Of a stretch of 64,000 nt of DNA, positions 4,200 through 19,404 are shown in pieces. Position 1 is the first letter of the stretch. Every line of letters starts with the position of its first letter. The notes below the pieces were generated by a model that had not been told where the DNA came from, made no database searches, and saw only the letters and a list, made by a program, of their open reading frames with translations. The position numbers were made by a program, and so were the translations under genes. This DNA comes from Candidatus Pelagibacter communis (lineage in GTDB: Bacteria > Pseudomonadota > Alphaproteobacteria > Pelagibacterales > Pelagibacteraceae): positions 62,001-126,000 of the forward strand of contig NZ_CVSB01000029.1 of NCBI RefSeq assembly GCF_001179845.1, written 5' to 3'.

Positions 4200-4934
4200 A
4201 TGTCTGACAGTATTATTCAAATAAAAAATGTAAATAAATGGTTTGGTGATTTTCAAGTTTTAAAAGATATTAATCTTGAGGTTAAACCAAAAGAAAAAAT
4301 CGTTGTTTGTGGCCCATCCGGATCAGGTAAATCTACATTAATTAGATGTATCAATAGATTAGAAGAACATCAACAAGGTGACATTATTGTTGATGGAAAC
4401 ACTTTAACGGAAGATACAAAAAATATTGAACAAATTAGAGCAGAAGTTGGAATGGTATTCCAGCAGTTTAATTTATTCCCTCATTTATCAATTGTTGATA
4501 ATTGTACACTTGCACCAATTTGGGTAAAGAAGATGCCAAAAAAAGAAGCTGAAGAATTAGCTTTAAAACATTTAGAAAGAGTTCAAATTCTTGATCAAGC
4601 ACAAAAATTTCCAGGTCAACTATCAGGTGGCCAACAACAAAGGGTTGCCATAGCTAGAGCTCTTTGTATGGAGCCAAAAATTATGTTGTTTGACGAACCT
4701 ACATCAGCTCTGGATCCTGAAATGATTAAGGAAGTTCTAGATGTAATGGTAAATCTAGCAAACCAAGGCATGACTATGATAGTTGTTACACATGAGATGG
4801 GATTTGCTAAGGAAGTAGCAGATAAAATGATCTTTATGGATGAGGGCATGATAGTAGAAAAAGCTGATACGAAAGAGTTTTTTGCTAATCCAAAGAGCGA
4901 TAGAACCAAGCTATTTTTAAGTCAAATATTATAA
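4200..4934 (+). CDS. aapP: General L-amino-acid ABC transporter ATPase AapP
   Basis: A 244-residue cytoplasmic ATPase that powers the Aap importer. All ABC motifs are intact: Walker [10 protein letters not shown] (38-46), a Q-loop in [13 protein letters not shown], the signature [15 protein letters not shown], Walker [15 protein letters not shown] and the switch histidine in VVTHEMGFA. These variants are typical of polar amino-acid importers (GlnQ/HisP/AapP). The ATG lies three bases after the aapM stop. It is the last gene of the operon; an AT-only inverted repeat follows but no convincing terminator is seen. Confidence 0.95.
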
Positions 4935-5122
4935 AAATATATATTTTTTAAGGCATAATTTTAAAATAACACAATCTAAATTTGTTTATTTTGCATTTAA
5001 CTAATACTTGACAGTATTTTGATTATTTTAAATTTCTTATAAAAAAAACAAATTTTTTTATTGCAGTAACATAAATAAATAGGTTCAATAGTGATTATAA
5101 AACTTAATTAAGAGGGGTCTTA

Positions 5123-5494
5123 ATGGAAGATAATTTTAATAAACACTTAGGTAACAAGCTTAAGCTAAGAAGACTAGCTTTAGGTTTAACACAGACTAAA
5201 GTAGCAAAAGCAATCAATGTAACTTTTCAACAAATTCAAAAATACGAAAAAGGCACAAATGGAGTAAGTTCAATTAGATTACTTCAATTGTCAAATTATT
5301 TAAAAGTTCCTATTAGTTATTTTTTTGAGGATTTTTCTGAATATTCAATCAATCTAGAAAAATCACAAGAAGGTCATATTAACATTAATTATAATTTTTT
5401 AACAAAAATTTATTCTGAACTTAATGCTGATCAAAAATTAAAATTTAATAAATCTTTACAAATATCTGGATCAAAAATTTATAAAGCTGTTTGA
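5123..5494 (+). CDS. XRE-family helix-turn-helix regulator
   Basis: A 123-residue protein. Residues 8-70 are a complete Cro/C1-type helix-turn-helix. The segment VTFQQIQKYEKGTNGVSS followed by LKVPISYFFED is the signature of a regulator family common in alphaproteobacteria. The C-terminal 50 residues carry no recognised domain. A strong Shine-Dalgarno sequence (gagggg, 5112-5117) fixes the ATG start. It stands alone between the aap operon and the tRNA genes. A TTGACA hexamer at 5008-5013 may belong to its promoter. The target genes cannot be read from the sequence. Confidence 0.85.
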   Translation: MEDNFNKHLGNKLKLRRLALGLTQTKVAKAINVTFQQIQKYEKGTNGVSSIRLLQLSNYLKVPISYFFEDFSEYSINLEKSQEGHININYNFLTKIYSELNADQKLKFNKSLQISGSKIYKAV

Positions 5495-5578
5495 TTGAGT
5501 AAAATTAAAAACATTAATATTTGATAATTAAAAATAATCAAAATAACATCTTGAAAATTTATTCTTTGGAATAATTTT

Positions 5579-5654
5579 TGGCTCCTCGGGCAGGACTCGA
5601 ACCTGCGACCAATTGATTAACAGTCAACTGCTCTACCAACTGAGCTACCGAGGA
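5579..5654 (-). tRNA. tRNA-Asn (anticodon GTT)
   Basis: On the minus strand the acceptor arm tccccgg-type pair is TCCTCGG (5654-5648) with CCGAGGA (5589-5583). The D-arm is agctcagttggtagagc, the anticodon loop ctgttaa gives GTT, and the T-arm contains ggttcgagtcc. The discriminator is G (5582) and the CCA is encoded at 5581-5579. Confidence 0.97.
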
Positions 5655-5704
5655 ATATAAAAATCACAACTTACTTTTTTTTAGAACTAAAACAAGAATT
5701 ATTT

Positions 5705-5778
5705 TGGAGGCAATGCCCGGAATCGAACCGGGATACAAGGATTTGCAATCCTCTGCGTAACCATTCCGCCACATTGCC
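5705..5778 (-). tRNA. tRNA-Cys (anticodon GCA)
   Basis: On the minus strand the acceptor arm is GGCAATG (5778-5772) with CATTGCC (5715-5709). The anticodon loop ttgcaaa gives GCA. The T-arm contains ggttcgattcc. The discriminator is U (5708), as required for tRNA-Cys, and CCA is encoded at 5707-5705. It lies about 50 bases from tRNA-Asn on the same strand. Confidence 0.97.
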
Positions 5779-5960
5779 TTTTAATCAATAAGTAAAAGTG
5801 TTCTACTAATAGCAACCTTTCTTTTTAATACAAGTTTAATAATAAAGAAAAATTACTTTTCACTTATACATCAATATTTATATGTTGTTTAATAATTGTT
5901 AATGACAACTAAAAATTTACTTACTTTAATCTAAATTATTGAGTTATTGATTTTTAAAAA

Positions 5961-6884
5961 TCAAATATTTGTACTAATATTATCAAAATGTGGAAAGATG
6001 CTATTTATAATGTTTTCAAATTCTTTTTTTTCAACATTATTCCAATTTTTATATATATGATTTAAGTTAGTATCATTATTTGGCGCTTTGTCTAAAACTT
6101 TATAAAACTGACTCTCAGTCATTTTATTTTTAAAATTAAATTTTTTTGAGAGTTTTTCGTAAATATCATAATTTTGATTAACATCTTCTAACTTTACATA
6201 ATATTTATCAATATTTTGTATATTATTAAATTTGTCATAAATTGTTTTATTAACTGTAGACCAAAACCAAGTTATTTTTCCTATTCTACTTAAGGATAAC
6301 CACTCTTTTAAATATTCACCTTTTGGAATAATTCTAGAAAATGATCTGTATTGACTATCAGTAATATCAATTAAAGGTGTACTAATTTCTTTTTGATTAT
6401 TAAAATTTTGATACCATCCCTTATTATATAAAGATTCAACTGTCTTAATAGGATTTCTAATATTAAAAAAAATAGAATTTGGTTTAAGTCTATTTGTTAA
6501 TTCTTCAATACCGAAAGAAAAATATGGTGAAGAGATAAAACTGTTTTGATATTTTACCATATCTCTTTTTGAGGATAATTCTATGAGATCAATAAAACCA
6601 TTTTTAGAAATTGGTAAATTATAGTAACAGATGTATCTATAAAAGGCTTCGTAATCAGCAAATCGTTCACATGTGCCTACCCAATTTGGATGACTATTAA
6701 ATATTTTTGAAAACCAATTTTGACCACTTCTTCCAGAACCAAAACTTAAGGTTAGAACATTGTTATCTTTTCTCTGAAAATTTTGATATTTAATTAATTC
6801 ACTGTAAGTTGGTCTTCTAAGTTTTTTTGCTTCATTAGAAAAATTAAACAATCTATTTTTAATTTTGTAAAAAAAATTATTCAC
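5961..6884 (-). CDS. Sulfotransferase-family protein
   Basis: This 307-residue protein resembles PAPS-dependent sulfotransferases, which move a sulfate group to a sugar, lipid or alcohol. Residues 49-58 (GSGRSGQNWF) match the phosphosulfate-binding loop (SGRSGTTWL in the family). Residues 141-154 (N-I-R-N-P-I-K-T-V-E-S-L-Y-N) match the 3'-phosphate-binding RxPxxxxxSxY region. No signal peptide is apparent, so it should act in the cytoplasm. It is divergent from a LicD-like gene, with about 170 bases between the starts, which suggests a role in modifying surface polysaccharide. The acceptor is unknown. A catalytic base cannot be placed with confidence. Confidence 0.72.
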   Translation of the reverse strand: MNNFFYKIKNRLFNFSNEAKKLRRPTYSELIKYQNFQRKDNNVLTLSFGSGRSGQNWFSKIFNSHPNWVGTCERFADYEAFYRYICYYNLPISKNGFIDLIELSSKRDMVKYQNSFISSPYFSFGIEELTNRLKPNSIFFNIRNPIKTVESLYNKGWYQNFNNQKEISTPLIDITDSQYRSFSRIIPKGEYLKEWLSLSRIGKITWFWSTVNKTIYDKFNNIQNIDKYYVKLEDVNQNYDIYEKLSKKFNFKNKMTESQFYKVLDKAPNNDTNLNHIYKNWNNVEKKEFENIINSIFPHFDNISTNI

Positions 6885-7054
6885 TTGGTTTAATAATATT
6901 AATATTTAAAGTATTTATACAACACTAAATTTTAATTAAGTTTTTTTATTTGACTAGCAAACCTACTATAAATGTTGTTAAATTAAAATTCTAAAATGAC
7001 TTTAATTAAAATTTAATATAAAGATATAATTATCTTAAATTATAATTGAATTTT

Positions 7055-7687
7055 ATGGATCCAAAAATCAGAGACAGAACTTACGATGAATTGTTGGTAA
7101 GAAAAAAAGAATTTTTAAAAATTTGTAATATTTTAGATCAATTAAAAATAATTTTTTTTTTAAATTCTGGTATTCTTTTAGGCGCTATAAGAGATAATGA
7201 TCTTATAAAATGGGATTGGGATATAGAAATTAGTGTTTTTTCTGATGAGTTATTACCTAATATAGATTTAATCACAAACAAGTTGAAAGAAAATGGTTTT
7301 GAAATAAAGAAAATAAATAAAAAGGAAGATGATTCAAAAATAGATTTTGTTGGCGAATATCCTGGTGATGTTACAGGTTATACAATTTGGTCCTGGAATT
7401 ATTCCAAATTAAGAGATGTCTACTGGCGTCGAGAACTTTCCATACCTTCTAAATTTTTAAACAAATTTTCTAAAATTGATTTTATGGGACGACAATTTAA
7501 TTGCCCTCAAAACCCAGAAGAATATTTGGAATTTGCCTACGGAAATTGGAAAGTACCATTAAGATCAACTGATAAAGATTTATATAATACAAAAAGGTAT
7601 AAAAATAAGAAAAAATCCATAATAACAAATTTAATACATACTTTTAAAAAAATAATTTATGAATTATGGAAATTAGTTAAGAAATAA
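7055..7687 (+). CDS. LicD/fukutin-like nucleotidyltransferase-fold transferase
   Basis: A protein of 210 residues from the ATG at 7055; a TTG three codons earlier is in frame but less likely. Residues 38-60 hold the LicD signature: NSGILLGAIRDNDLIKWDWD followed by I-E-I. This compares with SGTLLGAIRxxxxIPWDDDIDI in the family, with D54, D56 and E58 as the likely metal ligands. LicD proteins transfer phosphocholine or related phospho-alcohols from a CDP donor to cell-surface glycans, and fukutin relatives transfer ribitol phosphate. The C-terminus is very lysine-rich and suits binding to the membrane surface. It sits between a sulfotransferase-like gene and valS. Confidence 0.72.
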   Translation: MDPKIRDRTYDELLVRKKEFLKICNILDQLKIIFFLNSGILLGAIRDNDLIKWDWDIEISVFSDELLPNIDLITNKLKENGFEIKKINKKEDDSKIDFVGEYPGDVTGYTIWSWNYSKLRDVYWRRELSIPSKFLNKFSKIDFMGRQFNCPQNPEEYLEFAYGNWKVPLRSTDKDLYNTKRYKNKKKSIITNLIHTFKKIIYELWKLVKK

Positions 7688-7724
7688 TTATCAACTTAAA
7701 TATAAATTTATATATATTACAATC

Positions 7725-10352
7725 ATGGATACAGATAAATATTTACATTCTAATGTTGAAAATAAGATTTATTCTTATTGGGAAAAAAATAATTTATTTA
7801 AACCAAAACCAAATTCGAAAAAATTTTCAATAGTTATTCCGCCACCTAATGTTACTGGAAGTTTACATATGGGGCATGCTTTAAATAATTCAATTCAAGA
7901 TTTGTTAGTTCGATATCACCGAATGAATAATTATGAAACTTTATGGCAGCCTGGAACAGATCATGCCGGTATTGCAACACAAGCTTTAGTTGAAAGAAAA
8001 CTAGCAGCAGAAAAAATAGACAAAAATGAAATTGGTAGAGAAAAATTTATAGAAAAAGTATGGGAATGGAAAGAGCAGTATGGTGATATTATTATTAATC
8101 AATTAAAAAAACTCGGATGTTCTTGTGATTGGTCTCGTAATGCGTTCACAATGGATGAAAACTTATCAAAATCTGTAATAAAAGTATTTGTGGATTTATA
8201 TAATAAAAATTTAATTTACAAAGATAAAAAACTAGTCAACTGGGATACTGTTTTAAAAACTGCAATTTCTGATCTTGAAGTAGATCAAAGAGAAGTAAAC
8301 TCAAAAATTTATTATATCAAGTACCCAATTGATGGAGCAGATGAATTTATAACAATTGCAACTACAAGACCTGAAACAATGCTTGGTGATACTGCGATTG
8401 CAGTAAATCCAAAAGATGATAGATTTAAATCATTTGTTGGGAAAACTGTTACAATACCAATAGTTGGAAGAAAGATTCTAATTATAGAAGATGATTATGC
8501 TGATCCTGAACAAGGAACTGGAGCGCTAAAAATCACTCCAGCACATGATTTTAATGACTATAATGTTGGTCAAAGAAATAATCTTGAGATTATTAACATA
8601 TTTACTGAGTCGGGCAAAATTAACGAAAATGCACCAAAAGAATACATTGGTCTAGATAGATTTGAAGCAAGAAAGAAAATTTTAAAAGAATTAAAGAATA
8701 AAGAATTTTTTGTTAAAGAAGAAAATATTAAAAACAAAGTTCCATATGGAGATAGATCTAATTCTATAATTGAACCATTTTTAACAGAGCAATGGTTTGT
8801 TGACGCAGAAAAACTGTCAATTAAAGCCAAAGAAGTTGTTAATTCAAAAAAAACAAATTTTTTTCCTGAAAATTGGTCAAAAACTTATTTTCAATGGATG
8901 AATAATATAGAACCATGGTGTATTTCAAGACAACTTTGGTGGGGGCACCAGATACCTGCATGGTACGGGCCAGATAAAAAAATCTTTGTAGCAAACAATA
9001 AAGAAGAGGCAAAAAAATTAGCCAAAAAATACTATGGTCAAGATGAAAACTTAATTCGTGATCCCGATGTATTGGATACATGGTTCTCATCTGGTCTTTG
9101 GCCATTTGCAACATTAGGTTGGCCAGACAATAAAGAATATGTTGAAAAATTTTATCCTACTTCTGTACTAGTAACAGGTTTTGATATTATTTTTTTCTGG
9201 GTTGCTAGAATGATAATGTTTGGAACAGAATTTTTAAACAAAGAACCATTTAAAGATATCTATGTCCATGCATTAGTTAGAGATGAGAAAGGACAAAAAA
9301 TGTCTAAATCAAAAGGAAACGTTATCGATCCTTTAGATTTAATTGAAAAATATAGTGCAGATGCACTTAGATTTACTTTGTTATCGATGGCCTCACCCGG
9401 TACAGACGTCAAGCTTTCTGAGGACAGAGTAAAAGGTTATAGAAATTTTTTAAATAAATTATGGAATGCAAATAATTTTTTAATCACTAATGAATGTGAT
9501 TTTAAAGATATAGATAAAGTTCCAAGTTTAAATGTTAACATTAACAAATGGGTTTATTCAGAACTTATTGAAACTAAAAATAAGATAGAAAAAAATCTTA
9601 AAGATTATAGATTTGATGAGGCAGCAAAGAATATTTATCAATTTGTATGGCATTCGTATTGTGATTGGTATTTAGAATTATCTAAAACAATACTTTTTTC
9701 AGAAGATGAAAAAGCTAAAGCAGAGGTTAAAAAAGTTTCATCTTTTGTATTCAAACAAATTTTGATTCTATTGCATCCTTTTATTCCTTTCGTTACTGAA
9801 GAAATTTGGCTTAAAAACAAATTTGATAATGATGGTAGTGATTATTTGATGTTTAAAAATTGGTTATCAGGTGAAATAAATAAGGATAGCAGTACCGAAC
9901 AGGTTGATAATATCATTAACATTATTTCTGGGATTAGATCATTTAAAAATGAGCTAAATGTTAGCCCAGGTTCATTTATTGATGTATCAATTAGCAATAT
10001 TAAGAAAAATCAAAAAGATTTTATTAATACAAATGAAATTATTCTAAAAAAACTATGCAGAATAAATAACATACTAGATAAAGATTTAGATAAACCAGCT
10101 GCTACAATGGTTTTTTCTGGCGATTTGTTTAAGATTTATTTTGATAAAGATGTTGATTTAAAATTAATTAAGGAAAATTTAACAAATAAACAAATTAGAT
10201 TAGAGCAAGAGATGAAAAAAATATCTCAAAGACTAGAAAATAAAAATTTTATAGACCGCGCTCCAAAAGAGATTGTTGAACAAGAAAAAAATAATTATAA
10301 TAATTTTAAGAATGATATTGAGAAAATATCAGTAACAATAAAGGGTATATAA
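7725..10352 (+). CDS. valS: Valyl-tRNA synthetase
   Basis: This 875-residue class I synthetase attaches valine to tRNA-Val in the cytoplasm. The HIGH motif appears as HMGH (48-51) within [16 protein letters not shown], and the KMSKS loop as [14 protein letters not shown] near residue 525. The CP1 editing domain carries [17 protein letters not shown]. The C-terminus, from about residue 805, is a lysine/glutamate-rich coiled coil typical of ValS. Length is in the normal bacterial range. The stop overlaps the ilvD start by one base (taATG), suggesting coupled translation of two genes concerned with valine. Confidence 0.98.
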
Positions 10353-12070
10353 TGGCTAAATTTAATAAAAAGAAACTTCCAAGCAGACATACATCATTAG
10401 GAGCAGACAGAGCTCCACATAGATCATTTTATTATGCTATGGGTGAAACTGAAAAAGATGTGGCCAAACCCTTTGTTGGGGTAGTTTCTACATGGAATGA
10501 AGCAGCTCCATGTAACATAGCACTTATGAGGCAGGCTCAATCAGTTAAAAAAGGAGTTAGAGCTAATGGTGGAACTCCAAGAGAATTTTGCACAATTACT
10601 GTTACAGATGGTATCGCAATGGGTCATGAAGGAATGAAGTCTTCATTAATATCTAGAGAAGTAATAGCAGATTCTGCCGAACTTACTGTAAGAGGTCATT
10701 GTTATGATGCATTAGTAGGGATTGCAGGATGTGATAAATCTTTACCAGGTCTAATGATGTCTATGGTTAGATTAAATGTACCGAGTGTATTTATATATGG
10801 TGGGTCAATTCTTCCAGGTAGATACAAAGGTAAAGACGTAACAGTGGTAGATGTATTTGAAGCAGTTGGAAAGCATTCATCTGGTAAAATGTCTGCGGCA
10901 GAATTAAGAAAATTAGAATTAGTTGCTTGCCCAAGTGCAGGTGCTTGTGGTGGACAATTTACTGCAAATACAATGGCATGTGTATCTGAGGCAATTGGAT
11001 TAGCATTACCTTATTCAGCAGGAACGCCAGCTCCATATGAAGAAAGAGATAAATACGCAAAAGCTAGCGGTAAAATGGTTATGAACCTTTTAAAAAAAGG
11101 AATTAAACCAAGAGATATTGTTACAAGAAAAGCTTTAGAAAATGCTGCAACAGTTGTTGCTGCAACAGGTGGATCAACAAATGCAGGATTACATTTACCT
11201 GCTATTGCAAATGAAGCAGGAATTAAATTTGATTTAATGGATGTTGCTAAAATTTTTAAAAGAACACCTTATCTTGCAGATTTAAAACCTGGTGGAAAAT
11301 ATGTTGCAAAAGATATGTGGTTAGCAGGCGGTGTTCCAATGTTATTAAAAACTTTATATGAAGGTGGATATATTCATGGTGATTGCATGACTGTGACTGG
11401 AAAAACTATGAAGGAAAATTTAAAAGGTATAAAATTTAATCCAAAACAAAAAGTAATGAGATCTTATAAAAATCCATTATCAACAACAGGAGGTGTGGTT
11501 GGACTAAAAGGAAATTTAGCTCCAGAAGGCGCAATCGTTAAAGTTGCTGGACTTAGAAAATTACAATTTACTGGAAAAGCAAGATGCTTTGATAACGAGG
11601 AAAGTGCAATGAAAGCAGTTCAAAGCAGAAAATATAATGATGGTGATGTAATAATAATTAGATACGAAGGACCAGTGGGAGGTCCAGGTATGAGAGAAAT
11701 GTTATCGACAACAGGTGCAATCTACGGACAAGGAAAAGGGGAGAAAGTAGCCCTTATAACTGATGGTAGGTTCTCTGGTGCTACTAGAGGCTTTTGTGTT
11801 GGTCACGTGGGCCCTGAGGCTGCTCTAGGGGGTCCTATAGGTCTTTTACGTACAGGAGACATCATTGATATCGATGCGAAAAAAGGAACGATCAATGTAA
11901 GACTTTCTAAAAAAGAAATGGCTGCAAGAAAAAGAAAATGGAAGGCTAGAAAATCGGATTTTGGGTCTGGTACTTTATGGAAATATGCACAAACAGTAGG
12001 ACCAGCATATTTAGGCGCACCAACACACCCAGGTAAGAAAAAAGAAGTTAAGGATTATTCAGAGATTTAA
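10352..12070 (+). CDS. ilvD: Dihydroxy-acid dehydratase
   Basis: This 572-residue iron-sulfur enzyme dehydrates 2,3-dihydroxy acids to 2-keto acids, the penultimate step of valine and isoleucine synthesis. The cluster and active-site cysteines are seen at C127 (AGCDKSLPG) and C199 ([13 protein letters not shown]), together with [21 protein letters not shown] near the C-terminus. The length fits the family. It overlaps valS upstream and manC downstream by one base each, so the three genes probably form one transcript. The region from 11740 to 11840 is slightly richer in G+C than its neighbours because of conserved glycine-rich motifs. Confidence 0.97.
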
Positions 12071-13275
12071 TGAAAATTCGTCCAGTTATTTTATGTGGAG
12101 GTGCTGGAACTCGACTTTGGCCAAATTCTAAAAATCATCAAGCAAAACAGTTTATTGATTTTGGTAATTGGACCTTGCTTGGAAAAACACTTGAGAGAAC
12201 AAAAGCATCAATTTACGACTCTCCAATTATTAGCACCAATAAGAAATACTTAAATAAAGTAAAACAGCATTTAAGAAAAAACAAAATAAACAAATATAAA
12301 ATTGTTGTAGAACCAGCTAAAAGAAATACTGCACCAGCTATATTAAGCACAGCTTTAATTAAAGATATTCCAGACAATCAGCCTTTAATGTTTTTTACAG
12401 CAGACCATTTAATTGAAAAAATGAGCATTTTTAATAAGGCAATAAATAAAAATAAATCAAATCTAAATAAAGAAAATATATTTGTTTTTGGAATTAAACC
12501 TAAATCTCCAACTAGCGAATATGGTTATTTTTTAACTAAAAAAATCAAAGGTAATATCAATAAAGTAACCAGATTTATTGAAAAACCAAATGAACCAAAA
12601 GCTAAACAAATTGTAAAGAAAAAAGGTTATTGGAATTCAGGAATGTTTTATCTTCGAAAAGATTCTATAATAAGTAACTTTAAAAAATATCAGCCAAATA
12701 CATATAGAAGTTGTTTAAATGCAGTAAAAAAAGCAAAATATAAGTCTAATACTTATTATCTAAACAAAGCTTCATTTATAAAAGCGACTGCTAAATCTTT
12801 TGATTACGCAATTCTAGAAAAAACCAAAGAAATTAACGCTATCAAATTAGATATTCCTTGGTCAGATCTTGGTAGTTGGAAAGAAATTCTGAAGATGTAT
12901 GACAAAAATAAAAACAAATATATTAAGAAAAAAAACGTGTATTACCGTCCATGGGGCAGATATACAAATCTATTCAAGGGCAAAGAGTTTTTAATTAAAG
13001 AGTTGTGTGTAAAATCAAAAGGTATTCTAAGTTTACAAAAACATCATCACCGAGCAGAACATTGGTTAGTTACACATGGTAATCCTAAAATAACCTTAAA
13101 TAAAAAAAGTTTTTTTAAGAAAACAAATGATCATATTTTTATACCACTATCAGCGATTCATAGAATTTATAATCCTGGAAAAAAACCAGTTAAAATTATA
13201 GAAGCACAGGTAGGTTCGATACTAAAAGAAACAGATATAGTTAGATACCAAGATATTTATGGTAGAGTGAAGTAA
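12070..13275 (+). CDS. manC: Mannose-1-phosphate guanylyltransferase (with cupin domain)
   Basis: A 401-residue protein that probably makes GDP-mannose from mannose-1-phosphate and GTP for surface polysaccharide. The nucleotide-binding motif GGAGTRLWPNS (10-20), the FIEKP segment and WNSGMF are typical of ManC/AlgA. From about residue 285 there is a cupin domain of the mannose-6-phosphate isomerase type II kind, with PWGRYTNL, LQKHHHRAEHWLVTHGNP and F-I-P-L-S-A-I-H-R. It may therefore be bifunctional. It is about 65 residues shorter than the usual 465-480. It overlaps ilvD by one base and is followed 24 bases later by another nucleotidyltransferase gene. Confidence 0.9.
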   Translation: MKIRPVILCGGAGTRLWPNSKNHQAKQFIDFGNWTLLGKTLERTKASIYDSPIISTNKKYLNKVKQHLRKNKINKYKIVVEPAKRNTAPAILSTALIKDIPDNQPLMFFTADHLIEKMSIFNKAINKNKSNLNKENIFVFGIKPKSPTSEYGYFLTKKIKGNINKVTRFIEKPNEPKAKQIVKKKGYWNSGMFYLRKDSIISNFKKYQPNTYRSCLNAVKKAKYKSNTYYLNKASFIKATAKSFDYAILEKTKEINAIKLDIPWSDLGSWKEILKMYDKNKNKYIKKKNVYYRPWGRYTNLFKGKEFLIKELCVKSKGILSLQKHHHRAEHWLVTHGNPKITLNKKSFFKKTNDHIFIPLSAIHRIYNPGKKPVKIIEAQVGSILKETDIVRYQDIYGRVK

Positions 13276-13299
13276 ATTATCAGTTTATATTGAAAATAA

Positions 13300-14418
13300 A
13301 TGAAAAAAAAATTATTAAATGAAACATTTGGTTCTTACATTAGAAGCTTGAGAATTAAAAATGAAATTGGTCAAAGAGAATTAGCTAAGAAAATTGGTTT
13401 AGCAGCATCATATTTAAATGATATTGAAAAAAATAAAAGAGCAGCACCAAAAAATGATATTATAAAAAAATTATCTTTAATTTTAAAAGTAGATTTAGAC
13501 TTATTAAATGATTTAGCTGGGATTTCAAAAAAAACTTTACCACCCGATATTTTAGATTACATTGAAAAAAATCCTGAAATTATTTCACTGCTTCGATCAG
13601 CTAAAAATAACAAATTAAAATCCTCAGAATTTGAAAAAATTGAAGAGACAATAAATAAATCGAAAACAAAATGTTTGATAGTTGCTGCTGGTCTTGGTAG
13701 TAGACTTAAAGGTCACACAGAACACAATCCCAAGTGTATGTTGGATTTTGGAGGTAAAACATTACTTCAAAGACAGTTGTCTTCATATAAAGAAAACGGA
13801 ATTGAAGATATATCACTGATACGCGGATACAAAAAAAATAAGATTAAATACAAAGGTATAAAATATTTTGATAATAATGATTATAAAGATAACAATATTT
13901 TAAACTCAATTTTTTATGGCGAAGAAGTTATTAATGGAAATATAATTATTTCATACTCTGATATTTTATTTGAACCTTTTGTAGTAAAAAGAGCATTAGA
14001 GAGTGATCATGATATTTCTGTAATTGTTGATATAGATTGGCGAGATTATTATATAGATAGAAAAGATCACCCATTATCAGAAGCAGAAAATGTAATTTTT
14101 AATTCTAATAATGAGGTAGTCAAAATTGGAAAAATTGCCTCTGACAAAGAGGAAGTCCATGGTGAATTTATAGGTATGATTAAACTTAATCATAGAGGAT
14201 GCGAAATATTTAAACAAAATTTTCATCGAGTTAAAAAACATTTTTGGAATAAACCTTTCCAAAGAGCAAAAATTTTTCAAAAGGCTTATTTAACTGATAT
14301 GATCCAGGAACTTGTCGATATTGGTATTAAAGTTCATTGCGTAATCATAGAAAGAGGCTGGAAAGAAATCGATACTGTAGAAGATTATAGAAAAGCCTTG
14401 ATTGAATTTAAAAGATAA
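13300..14418 (+). CDS. XRE helix-turn-helix fused to a LicC/PntC-like nucleotidyltransferase
   Basis: One uninterrupted 372-residue frame joins two complete domains. Residues 8-62 form a Cro/C1 helix-turn-helix. A helical tail follows, with LPPDILDYIEKNPEIISLLR, as seen in stand-alone XRE regulators. From residue 125 a sugar-nucleotide transferase fold begins: AAGLGSRLKGHTEHNPKCML is the nucleotide-binding loop, YSDILF is the place of the usual GDVLF metal site, and the end carries GWKEIDTVEDYRKA, the closing motif of phosphocholine or aminoethylphosphonate cytidylyltransferases. No in-frame ATG lies at the junction, so the fusion looks real. It lies 24 bases after manC and 99 bases before a phosphonate-type transporter. 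Substrate and DNA target are unknown; autoregulation by substrate binding is a guess. Confidence 0.8.
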   Translation: MKKKLLNETFGSYIRSLRIKNEIGQRELAKKIGLAASYLNDIEKNKRAAPKNDIIKKLSLILKVDLDLLNDLAGISKKTLPPDILDYIEKNPEIISLLRSAKNNKLKSSEFEKIEETINKSKTKCLIVAAGLGSRLKGHTEHNPKCMLDFGGKTLLQRQLSSYKENGIEDISLIRGYKKNKIKYKGIKYFDNNDYKDNNILNSIFYGEEVINGNIIISYSDILFEPFVVKRALESDHDISVIVDIDWRDYYIDRKDHPLSEAENVIFNSNNEVVKIGKIASDKEEVHGEFIGMIKLNHRGCEIFKQNFHRVKKHFWNKPFQRAKIFQKAYLTDMIQELVDIGIKVHCVIIERGWKEIDTVEDYRKALIEFKR

Positions 14419-14445
14419 TTTCATAAAAATTTAACAAAAATCTTC

Positions 14446-14473
14446 TTGAAATCCGCTTATTTATGTATATTTA
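14446..14473 (+). promoter_or_regulatory. Possible promoter of the phnDCE operon
   Basis: TTGAAA (14446-14451) is followed after 16 bases by TATTTA (14468-14473), about 45 bases before the phnD start. The 99-base gap before phnD is the first room for a promoter since the valS leader. The call is weak because of the AT-rich background. Confidence 0.3.
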
Positions 14474-14517
14474 ATTAACTTGTATGCGAACAAAATTAAC
14501 TATATAGGATATCAAAC

Positions 14518-15372
14518 ATGATAAAAAAAATAATATTTTCAATTTTAATAACATTATTAACTTTCTCTATTCAAGCAGATGAAAAAACTTATAAAATGGT
14601 TTTTGTACCTGCCAGTGAAAAAGGTGATGAAAGCGACTATAAAACATTAATTTCAATTACTGAGAGTCTTACTGGTTTTAATATAGAAACAATAAAAGTG
14701 ACTGATTATAATGCAGCTGTTGAAGCTATGAGAGCTGGTCGAGCTCATATAGCTTGGTATGGAGGCAAAACTTATGTTAAGGCTGCTGAGATAGCTGGAG
14801 CTGAAGCATTTGCTGCAGGAGTTAGGCCTGGCGAAAAAGATGCAGGTTATTATACATATTTTGTTGTCAAACAAGACAGTGAATTAAAAAAATTTACTGA
14901 TGTTAAAGGAAAAGTTTTATCCTTAAATACTATTGGTTCTACTAGCGGTGATTTAATTCCACAAGTAGAATTAAGTAAGATTAATCTTTCTACAAAGAAT
15001 AAAGATCATTTTGAAAATGTTTTTTATGCTGGTAGTCATGATGCTTGCTTACTTGCTGTAATAAATAATCAATCTGATGTCTGCGGAATGAGTTCTAGAA
15101 ATTATGAAGCAAGATTAGCAGATGGAACTTTTAAAGAAGAAGATGTAAGGATTATACATAAATCAGATAGAGTTCCACCACCACCATTGGCTTATTCAAA
15201 AATGATACCAAAAGAAGACAGAGATAAAATAAAAAAGGCTGTTTTAGACGCTCATAACCATGGAGAGATAGGTGGATATGGTGGAAAAATGTCTCATTAT
15301 ATGGAAGTTAAAGATTCAGATTATAATGTTTTAAGAGAAGTTATTGAACTATTAAATAAAAATAAAAGTTAA
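14518..15372 (+). CDS. phnD: Phosphonate-type ABC transporter, periplasmic binding protein
   Basis: This 284-residue protein should bind a phosphonate, phosphite or phosphate ester in the periplasm. Residues 1-20 are a signal peptide ending at S-I-Q-A-D. The mature protein has the PhnD fold: DYNAAVEAMRAGRAHIAWYG, KGKVLSLNTIGSTSGDLIPQ (loop that holds the phosphonate oxygens), and a segment with AGSHDACLLAVINNQSDVCG. The GGAT ribosome-binding site lies at the right distance. The genes for the ATPase and permease follow directly. No C-P lyase, phosphonatase or phosphonate synthesis genes are in the window, so the fate of the ligand is open. Confidence 0.9.
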   Translation: MIKKIIFSILITLLTFSIQADEKTYKMVFVPASEKGDESDYKTLISITESLTGFNIETIKVTDYNAAVEAMRAGRAHIAWYGGKTYVKAAEIAGAEAFAAGVRPGEKDAGYYTYFVVKQDSELKKFTDVKGKVLSLNTIGSTSGDLIPQVELSKINLSTKNKDHFENVFYAGSHDACLLAVINNQSDVCGMSSRNYEARLADGTFKEEDVRIIHKSDRVPPPPLAYSKMIPKEDRDKIKKAVLDAHNHGEIGGYGGKMSHYMEVKDSDYNVLREVIELLNKNKS

Positions 15373-15389
15373 ATTATCAAAGGACTATT

Positions 15390-16112
15390 ATGCTTGAAAT
15401 ACAAAATCTTAAAAAAACTTTTGAGAATGGTAGTCCCGCATTAAAAGGTGTGGATTTAAAAATTAACAAAGGGGAATTTGTAAGTATTTTAGGACCTAGT
15501 GGTTCTGGTAAAACGACTTTACTTAGAACAATTAATGGTCTTGAAACTTCAAGTGGAGGAGAAATTTACTTTGATAATAAAAAAATAGATAATAGTAATA
15601 TTTCAGAAGTTCAAAAAAAAACTGGAATGATTTTTCAAGAGTTTAACTTGGTAAATAATCTTTCTGCAATAAATAATGTTTTAACTGGTCTTTTAAATTC
15701 AAGTAATAAATTTTTATCTCTTTTTTATTTATTTTCAAAAAAACAAAAAATAGAAGCTTTGAAATCATTGGAGACGGTTGGTTTACTTGAAAAATCTTAC
15801 AGTAGATCTGATGAATTATCTGGAGGACAAAGACAAAGAGTGGGGATAGCAAGAGCAATCATCAAAAAACCATTGCTATTATTAGCTGATGAACCTGTTG
15901 CAAGTCTAGATCCTAAATCTTCCAATTTAATCTTATCTTTATTAAAACAAATAAATCAAGAATTTGGTACAACTATTTTATGTAATCTTCACCAAGTAGA
16001 TTTAGCAAAAAAATATTCAGATAGAGTAATTGGTCTAATCGATGGAAAAATTACATTTGATGAAAAATCAATTAATATTAACGAAGCATACTTGAAGAAA
16101 ATATATAGTTAA
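15390..16112 (+). CDS. phnC: Phosphonate-type ABC transporter ATPase
   Basis: A 240-residue cytoplasmic ATPase. Walker A is GPSGSGKTT (35-43), the Q-loop is GMIFQEFNLVNNL, the signature is LSGGQRQRVGIARAI, and Walker B is LLLADEPVASLDPKS. The EPVASLDP variant and the Q-loop sequence are typical of PhnC. The switch histidine is in L-C-N-L-H-Q-V. It follows phnD after 17 bases with an AAAGGA ribosome-binding site and precedes phnE by four bases. Confidence 0.93.
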   Translation: MLEIQNLKKTFENGSPALKGVDLKINKGEFVSILGPSGSGKTTLLRTINGLETSSGGEIYFDNKKIDNSNISEVQKKTGMIFQEFNLVNNLSAINNVLTGLLNSSNKFLSLFYLFSKKQKIEALKSLETVGLLEKSYSRSDELSGGQRQRVGIARAIIKKPLLLLADEPVASLDPKSSNLILSLLKQINQEFGTTILCNLHQVDLAKKYSDRVIGLIDGKITFDEKSININEAYLKKIYS

Positions 16113-16116
16113 AATT

Positions 16117-16944
16117 ATGAATAAGAATATTTTAGAATTAAAAGTAAATAATAAAGATAAAAATTTTGAAAAATATTTAAGACCCCAATGGTCATGGAAA
16201 ACCTTAATTTTCATAGTTTTATTTAGTTCTGCTTTAGTATTTGTCGTAAAAGATCTGGAGATAGATTTTATAAAGTTAGTATCAGACTCCTCAAAATATT
16301 TTGGTGATATTTTATCAAGAATGTTGCCCCCTGATTTTAGTAATTTAAGTGAATTAATTTATGCAATGTTTGAAACTATTGAAATAGCTTTTCTGGGTAC
16401 TTTTATTGCTATTGTTTTATCAATTCCACTTGGATTATTTTCAGCAAGAAATTTAGCCCCTAATTATTTTATTTATCTTGTATGCAAAACTATAGTTATA
16501 TTCTTTAGAGCTATTCCAGAATTTATTATTGCTATGATTTTAGTTATTGCTATTGGTTTTGGCGCGATGCCAGGTGTGCTTGCTTTAGGCTTACATACAA
16601 TGGGTTTCTTAGCAAAATTTTATGCAGAAGATATTGAGCATATAAATAAAGGACCGATAGATGCTCTTAAATCATCTGGAGCAACTAAAAGTCAAATTAT
16701 TTCATTTGGTGTTATACCTCAAATTCTACCTTCTTTTGTTGCTAACAATTTGTACATTTTAGATCGAAATGTAAGAATGGCTACCATGTTGGGTATCGTT
16801 GGCGCTGGTGGGATAGGCTATGAACTCCAATCATCATTTAGAATGTTTGAATATGAAAGAGTATCAGCAATTATAATACTCATTTTTGTAACAATTTTTT
16901 TAATCGATCATTTTTCAGCTTTTATTCGATCTAAAATAAAATAA
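16117..16944 (+). CDS. phnE: Phosphonate-type ABC transporter permease
   Basis: A 275-residue inner-membrane permease of the PhnE family. Membrane segments start at about residue 30. The domain contains MFETIEIAFLGTFIAIVLSI, the PhnE feature FFRAIPEFIIAMILV, and the ATPase-docking loop PIDALKSSGATKSQIISFGV. Only one permease gene is present, so it presumably works as a homodimer. It completes the phnD-C-E operon. An SMR-like gene follows nine bases later and may be cotranscribed. Confidence 0.92.
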   Translation: MNKNILELKVNNKDKNFEKYLRPQWSWKTLIFIVLFSSALVFVVKDLEIDFIKLVSDSSKYFGDILSRMLPPDFSNLSELIYAMFETIEIAFLGTFIAIVLSIPLGLFSARNLAPNYFIYLVCKTIVIFFRAIPEFIIAMILVIAIGFGAMPGVLALGLHTMGFLAKFYAEDIEHINKGPIDALKSSGATKSQIISFGVIPQILPSFVANNLYILDRNVRMATMLGIVGAGGIGYELQSSFRMFEYERVSAIIILIFVTIFLIDHFSAFIRSKIK

Positions 16945-16953
16945 TATAATAGG

Positions 16954-17292
16954 ATGAATTTCTCATCTGGTTATATTTATCTTTCTTTAGCAATAATACT
17001 CGGAATTTCTGCTAATGGTTTTTTAAAAACCACTAATGGATTTACTAATATTTTCCCAACAATCTTTTGTGTAACTTCGATAGTTTTATGTTTATTTTGT
17101 TTATCTAAAGCAATGAATTTAATTCCTGTAGGTTTTACTTATGCCACGTATGGAGGTTTAACTATAACTGCCGTAACTTTTTTTGGAATTATTAAGTATA
17201 ATCAGTTACCAAATTTTTATGGTTCATTAGGTATTGTTTTAATAATTATATGGGTGATACTGGTAAATTATCTTGGAAAAGTAAGTAGTTAA
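16954..17292 (+). CDS. SMR-family small membrane transporter-like protein
   Basis: A 112-residue protein with four hydrophobic helices that aligns along its whole length with EmrE/QacE: Y-I-Y-L at the start, K-x-x-x-G-F-T-N-I-F-P after helix 1, and IPVGFTYATYGGLTIT for helix 3. The proton- and drug-binding glutamate of helix 1 (E14 in EmrE) is glycine here (G17), and the helix-3 tryptophan (W63 in EmrE) is tyrosine. It is therefore unlikely to be an ordinary multidrug antiporter. ArnE/ArnF lipid-sugar flippases are SMR relatives that also lack this glutamate. It lies between phnE (9 bases) and an EamA permease (14 bases). Confidence 0.75.
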   Translation: MNFSSGYIYLSLAIILGISANGFLKTTNGFTNIFPTIFCVTSIVLCLFCLSKAMNLIPVGFTYATYGGLTITAVTFFGIIKYNQLPNFYGSLGIVLIIIWVILVNYLGKVSS

Positions 17293-17306: not shown

Positions 17307-18149
17307 ATGGATACTACTGTCTTTTTTGTAATTCTATTAGCAACTATTATGCATGCCATTTGGAATGCGATGGTAAAACACCATCCAGATAAAGCTATAG
17401 CAGTACTAGCTATTGTTTTAGGCCACGTACCTTTAGCGTTAATTTGTATTTTATATTTCCCTTTACCTGGAAGAGAGACGCTACCATATATAATAGCCAG
17501 TGTACTAGCTCATCAAGGTTATCAATGGTATATGTTGAATTCTTATAATGTAGGCGACTATACTAATGTATATCCAATATTCAGAGGTTTTGGTCCTTTA
17601 TTGGCTACATTAATTTCAATAATATTTCTTGGTGTTATATTCAAAATAGCAACATTAATTTCAATATTATTAATCTGCGCAGGAATAATGTTTCTTGGAT
17701 TATTTGGTTCAAAAAACCAAAATCAAATTGAGATCATTAAATACTCATTACTTACTGGATCATTTATAGGTCTTTATTCATTGATTGACGGATATGGAGC
17801 AAGGATTAGTGTATCTGCAATTTCTTATATTAGTTTTTCCTTTTTATTTAGTGCTTTAGTTTTTCCTATCATTTTAAAACTTAATAAACATGAGGATATT
17901 TTTTATAAGGTTTTCAAAGATGCTAAAATGATATTTTGGGTAGGGGGATCTATATCTTTTATTATCTATGTGATTGTTGTTTGGGGTTTCACAAAGGCTC
18001 CAATTCCTCTAGTTGCAGCCCTTAGAGAAACGAGTATTTTTTTCTCAATTTTTATTGGATATTTCTTCTTAAAAGAAACCATCAATCTTAAAAAAATAAT
18101 CTCTATTGTGCTTATAGTTATTGGAGTGATTGGGATTAAACTATTTTAA
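17307..18149 (+). CDS. EamA/DMT-superfamily permease
   Basis: A 280-residue inner-membrane protein with about ten hydrophobic segments in two EamA repeats. Recognisable features are the opening IMHAIWNAMVKHHPDK, the Y-x-x-N-V-G-D-Y-T-N-V-Y-P segment, and the C-terminal PIPLVAALRETSIFF with the end VLIVIGVIGIKLF. DMT permeases export or import small metabolites, and one member, LicB, carries choline for surface decoration. Substrate cannot be read from sequence. It is the last gene of the run that starts with phnD, and it meets a minus-strand gene tail to tail with a four-base overlap. Confidence 0.8.
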   Translation: MDTTVFFVILLATIMHAIWNAMVKHHPDKAIAVLAIVLGHVPLALICILYFPLPGRETLPYIIASVLAHQGYQWYMLNSYNVGDYTNVYPIFRGFGPLLATLISIIFLGVIFKIATLISILLICAGIMFLGLFGSKNQNQIEIIKYSLLTGSFIGLYSLIDGYGARISVSAISYISFSFLFSALVFPIILKLNKHEDIFYKVFKDAKMIFWVGGSISFIIYVIVVWGFTKAPIPLVAALRETSIFFSIFIGYFFLKETINLKKIISIVLIVIGVIGIKLF

Positions 18150-18438: not shown

Positions 18439-19404
18439 TTAAAACCAATTATTTGGAATAATTATATAGTGGATCGCTAATACGATACCTACTGATACAC
18501 TTAAACCAAAAATCATTTTAAGAAAGTCTTTACCAATCAAAGGGAAGACATATTTAAATTTATATTCTTTATTCATTGTTGATATCGCAAGTTCTCTACC
18601 ACATAACAATCCTACAAACACCCACGTCGTAGACATAGGCAAATCATTGAGCTCTTTGAAGTAGAATAAAACAGCAGCATAAATTACGTTTATAATTGTA
18701 GCTGATCTTGCATATCTTGTTCCCGTTTTTTCAAGAACAACTTTTTGAATTGGTCCACCTTGAATGTAGAAAATATAAAATAATAATGAAGTAAAATAGG
18801 CCATTACAATTAAAAGTAATGATAAATCTAATTGCCTAGGCAGATATACAGCAATATTAGCTACATCGTGAGATAACCAAACCCACCATAACCAACCTGA
18901 AGAAACCCATACTGCATTTCTCCAAAATCCTCTCCATTTGTTATCTACTTCATCAAATTTCTCATTAATGAACTTTGATACCGCTATCCAGGCTATATAA
19001 GCAACCATTGCTGCTAATCCATAACCTACAACGCTTTTTAACAGCATTTTTTCAAGCACAACAGTTGAAGCAAATGCTGAAAGAACTAAAAAGGTTGTTG
19101 ATACAGGTATCCCAATTCTCGTTAATAATAACAGTATTGCAGGTGCTACTGCATGATACCATTGAATCTCTTGATAAGGTATTCTAGTTAATCTTCCGTA
19201 AGAAATATCACCATCATACGCATACCACCCCCAAGCTAACGCAAAAATCATAACTGCTGATGCCGATCCAGCTAGTACGTACCACTTAAACCACTTCTTT
19301 TTTGAAGCTATAAAGGTACCAAGTGTTTGAATTGAGTCGTTAGCGATTACGCTATATCCAGCAAGGGCAAACCCTATAACTGTATATACTAAAGTCATAT
19401 CCAT
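18439..19404 (-). CDS. PiT-family (PHO4) inorganic phosphate transporter-like permease
   Basis: A 321-residue inner-membrane protein with the two internal repeats of PiT transporters. Repeat 1 has VIANDSIQTLGTFIAS and RIGIPVSTTFLVLSAFA. Repeat 2 has WLSHDVANIAVYLPR, then GGPIQKVVLEKTGTRYARS and DLPMSTTWVFVGLLCG. The asparagine-aspartate (N-D, here also H-D) and P-x-S-T-T motifs are those of the sodium- or proton-driven phosphate carriers. It is shorter than the usual 400-500 residues and lacks a large central cytoplasmic loop. The start has an AGGAG ribosome-binding site. It has its own terminator and stands next to an ArsC/aquaporin pair. Confidence 0.72.
   Translation of the reverse strand: MDMTLVYTVIGFALAGYSVIANDSIQTLGTFIASKKKWFKWYVLAGSASAVMIFALAWGWYAYDGDISYGRLTRIPYQEIQWYHAVAPAILLLLTRIGIPVSTTFLVLSAFASTVVLEKMLLKSVVGYGLAAMVAYIAWIAVSKFINEKFDEVDNKWRGFWRNAVWVSSGWLWWVWLSHDVANIAVYLPRQLDLSLLLIVMAYFTSLLFYIFYIQGGPIQKVVLEKTGTRYARSATIINVIYAAVLFYFKELNDLPMSTTWVFVGLLCGRELAISTMNKEYKFKYVFPLIGKDFLKMIFGLSVSVGIVLAIHYIIIPNNWF

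Follow-up and report, generated by a model that had tools for sequence, protein, structure and literature searches.

A putative phosphonate cytidylyltransferase fused to an XRE-type DNA-binding domain in SAR11 bacteria

In the lic system, substrate uptake is followed by activation and by transfer through LicD, with the cytidylyltransferase LicC working behind the kinase LicA. Enzymatic and DNA-binding domains are combined in the archaeal RbkR, a helix-turn-helix (HTH) domain fused to a CTP-using riboflavin kinase, which regulates its own pathway. The regulator NadR of Enterobacterales consists of an N-terminal HTH, a nucleotidyltransferase, and a kinase; according to its description, it represses genes of its own pathway, including control of the uptake gene pnuC, in answer to NAD and ATP (PMC12421817). 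For the cytidylyltransferase PntC, the signature has been given as GXG(T/S)RX4-8PK, and alanine replacement of Arg15, Lys25, or Lys153 in the Treponema denticola enzyme (Tde-PntC) is reported to leave less than 10% of the wild-type activity; the acidic residues near the substrate amine are E104 and E196 in PntC and D105 and D192 in LicC (PMC6697681). Reads of the SAR11 order (Pelagibacterales) have been described as dominating the phosphonate-production genes of surface waters (PMC9381506), and phosphonate production by SAR11 is referred to as being without experimental confirmation (PMC8931226). No account of the control of phosphonate genes in the reduced SAR11 genomes was found in the literature.

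The window analyzed here, a stretch of 64,000 nucleotides from "Candidatus Pelagibacter communis" (contig NZ_CVSB01000029.1), encodes a protein in which an XRE-type HTH is joined to a nucleotidyltransferase. The gene and its parts are as follows:

13300-14418 (+), XRE-nucleotidyltransferase fusion gene (open reading frame, Pfam, homologues, structure model)
13327-13515 (+), XRE/Cro-C1 helix-turn-helix, residues 10-72 (Pfam HTH_3 and HTH_19 above cut-off; predicted helices)
13516-13656 (+), helical tail or linker, residues 73-119 (helices 84-90, 92-103, and 108-119; structure model)
13657-14415 (+), LicC/PntC-type nucleotidyltransferase domain, residues 120-372 (Pfam, PDB matches, profile alignment, model)

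The gene is a single frame that starts with ATG and encodes 372 amino acids. A Pfam search placed both HTH_3 (residues 14-69, 39.5 bits versus a cut-off of 23) and NTP_transf_3 (PF12804; residues 125-235, 34.2 bits versus 27) over their cut-offs in this same frame. The open reading frame, Pfam, and the model thus agree with the original prediction of one 372-codon frame holding an HTH, a helical tail, and a nucleotidyltransferase with the EIDTxED motif, which is found as EIDTVED at residues 356-362. The predicted lack of an ATG at the junction also held: none occurs in frame across residues 70-135, and the one in-frame TTG, at residue 126, lies within the first strand of the enzyme domain. In one relative (locus L041), in-frame ATGs are found at aligned residues 70 and 122, so that a second start is possible there. 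The structure model (pLDDT 87.4, pTM 0.71) was built from an alignment of 34 rows, which was used in place of one with 11 fusion rows that gave the enzyme domain a mean pLDDT of 47. It shows five XRE helices, then three helices of lower confidence in residues 84-119, and then a complete enzyme domain.

The five-helix XRE core is present in the model (helices 10-20, 25-32, 36-43, 52-62, and 66-72), with mean pLDDT values of 88-97 per 10-residue block over residues 11-70. Almost no variation is seen in the third helix: S37-K44, K46, and R47, located in this helix and in the turn that follows, are the same in all 11 fusion rows; by analogy with the XRE family, helix 36-43 would be the DNA-reading one. 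The tail, residues 73-119, has the lowest confidence of the model (mean pLDDT of 57-78 per block) and is less conserved than the HTH and the enzyme domain in 9 of the 10 rows compared with the window. In four phage records, the match (27-32% identity) spans residues 2-122 and leaves out the enzyme part, so the HTH and the tail seem to constitute a unit of their own.

The fusion was found in 10 of the 397 Pelagibacterales genomes sampled (the window's own counted), at 69-100% identity and with no internal stop; three of these copies are cut by contig ends, one (G170) at the start and two (G253 and G350) at the end. Another genome collection contributed the loci L001, L003, and L004, along with L002, which is identical to the contig of G383, for a total of 13 distinct SAR11-type fusion loci within Pelagibacteraceae. 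Because L003 starts at residue 137, the junction can be seen in 12 of the 13. That an assembly or frameshift artefact joined two genes has a negligible probability and is refuted by these homologues, in all 12 of which the same junction is kept without a stop. The other matches in the 397-genome search (24-44% identity) cover only the enzyme part; in two fusion genomes, G253 and G328, the wider family is also represented by a free-standing enzyme (30-31% identity). When 47 enzyme domains were placed in a tree, the ten fusion rows used came out as one clade (support 100/99), whose neighbours are the free-standing alphaproteobacterial enzymes L086 (97/94) and L092 (94/99). Of 385 alphaproteobacterial genomes, 63 had matches, and no fusion was seen outside SAR11-type genomes; with the window's own set aside, the match starts at profile position 57 in one, at position 80 in two, and at position 96 at least in the rest. 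Searches for the fusion were likewise negative in phages (7 matching records, none spanning both domains), plasmids (11 records, matching the enzyme part only), and viral contigs (43 stretches fitting the peptide pattern, none encoding a relative). In eight pairs, dN/dS was 0.05-0.27 in the HTH, 0.05-0.15 in the tail, and 0.03-0.08 in the enzyme domain, values that are rough because several of the pairs are close to saturation at synonymous sites; judged by these eight pairs, both the HTH and the enzyme domain are under purifying selection. The original claim of a real fusion is therefore upheld by its conservation in 13 loci and the single clade of its enzyme domains, with no stop or frameshift between the domains in the 12 that show the junction.

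The best PDB sequence match of the enzyme domain is LicC (1jyk, E 1.6e-13), and the 34-row profile matches LicC at 1.7e-28 and PntC at 2e-25. Among structural matches of the model, PntC 6pd2 (Z 27.5, rmsd 2.1, 229 residues aligned) and LicC 1jyl (Z 27.3, rmsd 1.9, 223 aligned) are tied at the top, with sugar nucleotidyltransferases behind them at Z 25.3 and below. The PntC signature appears as GLGSR-X8-PK at residues 131-145 (G131, G133, S134, R135, P144, and K145). Residues R135, K145, and K278 correspond to Arg15, Lys25, and Lys153 of Tde-PntC (K278 by our reading of the profile alignment), E356 corresponds to LicC Glu216, and D221 and D358 are presumably the metal-site residues. All six (R135, K145, K278, D221, E356, and D358) are conserved in each fusion row long enough to include them; a loss of catalytic residues in close homologues, which would have spoken against the prediction, was not observed. 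With fold, signature, and catalytic residues in place, the predicted full LicC/PntC-like nucleotidyltransferase is confirmed, and its assignment to the PntC/LicC-type cytidylyltransferase class is well supported. The amine-pocket acids (E104 and E196 in PntC, D105 and D192 in LicC) correspond, again by our reading of the profile alignment, to Y219 and T332, so the enzyme is not called an AEP-specific PntC. These two residues appear to argue weakly against phosphocholine and aminoethylphosphonate as the substrate, weakly because both are common to most of the wider family.

Two further observations concern relatives of this domain. Nucleotidyltransferase domains fused to PepM (L096, L099, L100, L119, and L120) carry different residues at the positions aligned with GXGSR, which may reflect either an alignment slip or a real change. 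A trio consisting of a PEP-utilizing enzyme, a C26-type amidotransferase-like protein, and a LicC-like nucleotidyltransferase recurs in L105 (6475-10777), L106, L107, L044, L045, L046, and L113, with hosts that include SAR11, other Alphaproteobacteria, and a Vibrio plasmid.

The gene order in the window is manC, fusion, phnD, phnC, phnE, SMR, and EamA-like, with a LicD-like gene farther upstream:

7046-7687 (+), LicD-like phosphotransferase (PF04991, 32.9 bits versus a cut-off of 22.6)
12070-13275 (+), manC-like mannose-1-phosphate guanylyltransferase (TIGR01479, 372.0 bits, just under the cut-off of 372.95)
14518-15372 (+), phnD-like substrate-binding protein (TIGR01098, the general phosphate/phosphite/phosphonate family, over cut-off; PhnD equivalog TIGR03431 under cut-off)
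15390-16112 (+), phnC ATPase (TIGR02315 over cut-off)
16117-16944 (+), phnE permease (TIGR01097 over cut-off)
16954-17292 (+), SMR-type small transporter (PF00893 over cut-off)
17307-18149 (+), EamA-like membrane protein, TIGR03340 "phosphonate utilization associated" (125 bits, under the cut-off of 288)

The proximity to phnDCE noted in the original prediction recurs in the relatives: phnD is the next gene downstream in 10 of the 11 loci where that gene is visible. The exception is G200 (L041), in which the fusion gene lies between sulfotransferase-like and glycosyltransferase genes and no phnE match was found. The manC gene is directly upstream in 5 of the 13 loci. PhnE of the window subfamily (at least 76% identity) occurs in 10 of the 397 genomes, 9 of which have the fusion (Fisher p 1.6e-16, with kinship of the genomes ignored); in G121, the only phnE genome with no fusion seen and thus the one candidate for a fusion-free negative control, the contig stops just upstream of phnE, which leaves phnD out of view. 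In the G388 locus L039 (8021-9574, minus strand), the phnE frame is 517 amino acids long and, by eye, has a second PhnD-like domain joined before PhnE.

Several other genes of the window and its relatives deserve mention. The minus-strand gene at 18439-19404 encodes a 321-aa protein, membrane-like by eye, that is about 93-97% identical where seen in relatives and has no Pfam or NCBIfam match. For the 307-aa product of another minus-strand gene, at 5961-6884, searches of Pfam, NCBIfam, and the PDB gave no match at the limits used; a relative with 61% identity adjoins a free nucleotidyltransferase in L044 (8119-9045). An aquaporin-family and low-molecular-weight phosphatase-family pair (PF00230 and PF01451; 19666-20740, minus strand) near the phosphorus genes has the look of arsenic detoxification.

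Phosphonate genes adjoin the fusion in some loci. In L002 and L004, a run of PepM, Ppd, and Fe alcohol dehydrogenase genes ends 13 bases ahead of it, and the L001 contig opens with what looks, by eye, like the last part of a Ppd frame directly upstream of it. PepM scores over cut-off in 2 of the 10 fusion genomes versus 39 of the 387 others (Fisher p 0.28, not enriched), so phosphonate biosynthesis is not a constant partner of the fusion; no PepM match was obtained in the window's own genome, which is 92% complete. The PepM loci L121-L127 served as context only, and the ORF maps of the neighbourhoods are mechanical longest-ORF maps, unreliable in GC-rich loci such as L110-L114. In the L004 phosphonate operon (4481-9092), whose gene order is the same in L002 (50-4661), there are two nucleotidyltransferases: the fusion protein and, in L004, an N-terminal cytidylyltransferase domain (PF01467) of PepM. 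Among free-standing enzymes the nearest relative is L086/L108 of genome G591, and the gene behind it encodes a protein with matches to both methylphosphonate synthase (6b9s, E 6e-74) and hydroxyethylphosphonate dioxygenase (6b9r, E 4e-64). The third in the row is an Fe alcohol dehydrogenase that is PsrA-like, although its 279 bits stay below the cut-off of 424.

No kinase-family match was found among the window neighbours scanned, and the LicD-like gene lies 5.6 kb upstream of the fusion. Relatives of the LicD-like protein occur in 7 of 382 genomes, including the fusion genomes G000, G200, and G253 (Fisher p 0.0004, presuming that all 10 fusion genomes fall within the 382-genome sample), and this phosphotransferase is a possible user of the activated product. 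In the SAR11 genome G304 (L182, 7170-10201), a LicD-like gene, an Fe alcohol dehydrogenase gene, and a relative of methylphosphonate synthase (6b9s, E 7e-86) stand in a row.

As for breakdown, the C-P lyase protein PhnJ was found in none of the 10 fusion genomes, and neither was PhnW over cut-off, with weak matches in all 10 (best 81 bits, in G388). PhnZ-like HD proteins scoring at least 150 bits, all under cut-off, are present in 5 of the 10 fusion genomes, which makes phosphonate degradation possible in some strains; with 3 of 10 other genomes also having them, no association with the fusion is claimed. In the window's own genome (contig C35; L177, 5286-8697), a PhnZ-like HD protein is encoded with a TauD-type dioxygenase and a GMC oxidoreductase (both by eye) next to a betaine-type ABC transporter (by eye). 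This cluster resembles the TmpA-TmpB pathway and could break down some phosphonates.

By sequence, PtxB is the nearest solved relative of the window PhnD, with E. coli PhnD ranking lower, and phosphite may therefore be what is imported. In a paper on another marine clade, Prochlorococcus phnDCE is cited as a phosphite importer (PMC10734472), and phosphate uptake via PhnCDE systems is cited in a SAR11 paper (PMC12421899). Of the phosphonates in high-molecular-weight dissolved phosphorus, methyl- and 2-hydroxyethylphosphonate are given as the most abundant (PMC8931226).

The gap between the fusion gene and phnD (14419-14517), to which the original prediction had pointed, contains a conserved dyad:

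14474-14500 (no strand assigned), conserved dyad, proposed operator (conserved ahead of phnD; two of seven outer pairs broken in the window)
14481-14492 (no strand assigned), dyad core TGTATGCGAACA (consensus TGTNNGCGAACA), which ends 25 bases before the phnD ATG

In most loci, this 27-base dyad reads ATTAACT-TGTNNGCGAACA-N-AGTTAAT. The dyad, or its core where the contig ends, is present in all 12 visible phnD upstream regions (the window, L001-L004, L036-L040, L160, and L161), and in G253 and G350, whose contigs end inside the fusion, the phnDCE contigs start at the dyad. Over nine distinct sequences, 88.9% of the cells pair, versus 30-43% with the arms slid; a single row, L039, accounts for the four arm pairs in which both partners have changed, and in 7 of the 9 rows the innermost positions do not pair. 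The exact core occurs once in the 1.14-Mb genome assembly of the window, a chance-level count because the reversed control pattern also occurs once, so the weight of the site comes from its conservation and place. With one mismatch allowed, there are two core sites in the window, at 14481 and at 7348 (inside the LicD-like gene), versus 1.1 expected. A conserved dyad site before phnD is well supported; regulation of manC is not supported, as the exact core in the window's genome lies only in front of phnD. A general regulator was thought unlikely, given the single exact core in the genome.

Additional copies of the core are seen in some loci. In L036, the core also lies 22 bases before the ATG of the fusion gene itself, and this fusion gene, with its own core copy, is directly behind a 16S-23S rRNA operon (9695-15560, genome G252). 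In L001 (1303), L002 (4694), and L004 (9126), the opposite strand has a second, weaker copy with two mismatches that lies 31 bases upstream of the main one, and no copy with fewer than two mismatches was found in the 18 kb read of G200. Five matches to a 19-base long form of the motif in viral contigs were taken as chance, because they lie inside open frames and the frames of these contigs match no seed protein.

The fusion, the enzyme class, the intact active site, the gene linkage, and the conserved dyad, all read from sequence, are best explained by a putative CTP:phosphonate cytidylyltransferase that doubles as a local regulator of phosphonate uptake, a reading that may equally well prove right or wrong. 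Judging by its family, the C-terminal domain would use CTP to attach CMP to a phosphonate, with 2-hydroxyethyl-, hydroxymethyl-, and methylphosphonate as the likeliest candidates; no kinase would be needed, since a phosphonate already carries the phosphorus group. The CMP-phosphonate would then be directed to surface glycans by a LicD- or TagF-like transferase. Some strains would make the phosphonate with PepM, Ppd, and alcohol dehydrogenase, whereas others probably import it through PhnDCE. The XRE domain, as a dimer, can be expected to bind the dyad at 14474-14500 and to control phnDCE, probably by repression, because the core lies so close to the phnD start (25 bases). DNA binding might be tuned by CTP, the phosphonate, or CMP-phosphonate in the enzyme site, following the example of NadR with NAD and ATP, and by this analogy ligand sensing by the enzyme domain is plausible. 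The most far-reaching version, in which one SAR11 protein senses and activates phosphonates and switches phnDCE, and the imported phosphonate decorates the cell surface and is not degraded, is rather unlikely to hold as a whole.

A single chain could also house two independent activities, an enzyme and a repressor without crosstalk, whose fusion only holds dosage and location together. Such an arrangement is consistent with the lower conservation and low model confidence of the tail, with the phage matches to residues 2-122 alone, and with the free-standing enzymes in G253 and G328. It appears somewhat improbable, however, as the junction is free of stops in every locus showing it and NadR demonstrates that coupling is possible in such pairs (PMC12421817). 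The substrate might be another one, a phosphocholine-like compound or phospho-alcohol used for surface glycans, while PhnDCE imports phosphite, phosphate, or phosphonate merely as a phosphorus source and the locus is a phosphorus island. LicC and PntC are equally close structural matches, PtxB is the nearest solved relative of PhnD, the G200 fusion sits among glycosyltransferase genes without phnDCE, and the window's own genome shows no PepM, all of which fit this possibility. Nevertheless, in three loci the fusion is directly behind phosphonate synthesis genes, the sister enzyme L086 adjoins a relative of methylphosphonate synthase, and the amine-pocket acids are replaced by Y219 and T332 (though these are common in the wider family), and a non-phosphonate substrate appears somewhat improbable.

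The dyad, too, can be read differently, as bound by some other factor or as acting as an RNA hairpin, with the XRE domain serving in dimerisation or having another target. Its folding is somewhat above that of shuffles in the window (z -1.5) and L001 (z -2.2), with little or no excess in L037 (z -0.3); the L039 stretch that was folded breaks off within the dyad and is therefore not informative on it. This modest folding makes a DNA site the better reading of the dyad, and no Rfam match was found in the gap between the fusion gene and phnD even at E 1. The recurrence of the core ahead of the L036 fusion gene and the invariant residues in the third helix and turn of the XRE domain also count against another factor or a hairpin, which is quite unlikely.

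For the cytidylyltransferase that would also regulate phosphonate uptake, substrate and control alike could be approached with one purified protein and a DNA site of 27 bases. If imported phosphonate does go to surface glycans, the presence of uptake genes would no longer point to phosphorus nutrition only. If, in addition, the protein both senses and activates phosphonates, the locus would provide a salvage route for phosphonate glycans, and the protein would be the first cytidylyltransferase-repressor, so far as the literature search shows.

Among the known systems, PntC of Treponema denticola (PntC-AEPT, 6pd1/6pd2) is similar to the fusion protein in fold (Z 27.5), signature, catalytic residues, and linkage to phosphonate genes, and PntC-type domains elsewhere are also fused, to AEP transaminase and to PepM. 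However, PntC has no DNA-binding domain and is about 20% identical, and the fusion protein lacks its acids for the AEP amine. LicC (1jyk/1jyl) shares the fold (Z 27.3) and is the best sequence match but has no HTH, and the transporter of the fusion locus is PhnDCE; the locus would resemble the lic scheme of uptake, activation, and LicD transfer. RbkR has a winged HTH and a kinase domain unrelated to the nucleotidyltransferase of the fusion. NadR, which also has an N-terminal HTH joined to a nucleotidyltransferase, offers a works-like comparison only: it is an NMN adenylyltransferase and ribosylnicotinamide kinase, with another substrate and pathway, and the fusion protein does not qualify as a NadR, showing only HTH and NTP transferase families over the Pfam cut-offs. 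The original claim that a sensor-enzyme of this kind is new cannot be kept, as NadR is already described as an HTH-nucleotidyltransferase repressor (PMC12421817). A literature search of partial coverage, which does not prove absence, found no published XRE-PntC/LicC fusion and no mention of the idea. What appears to be new here is a predicted repressor-nucleotidyltransferase with a PntC/LicC-type domain, a new member of a kind that is itself known from NadR.
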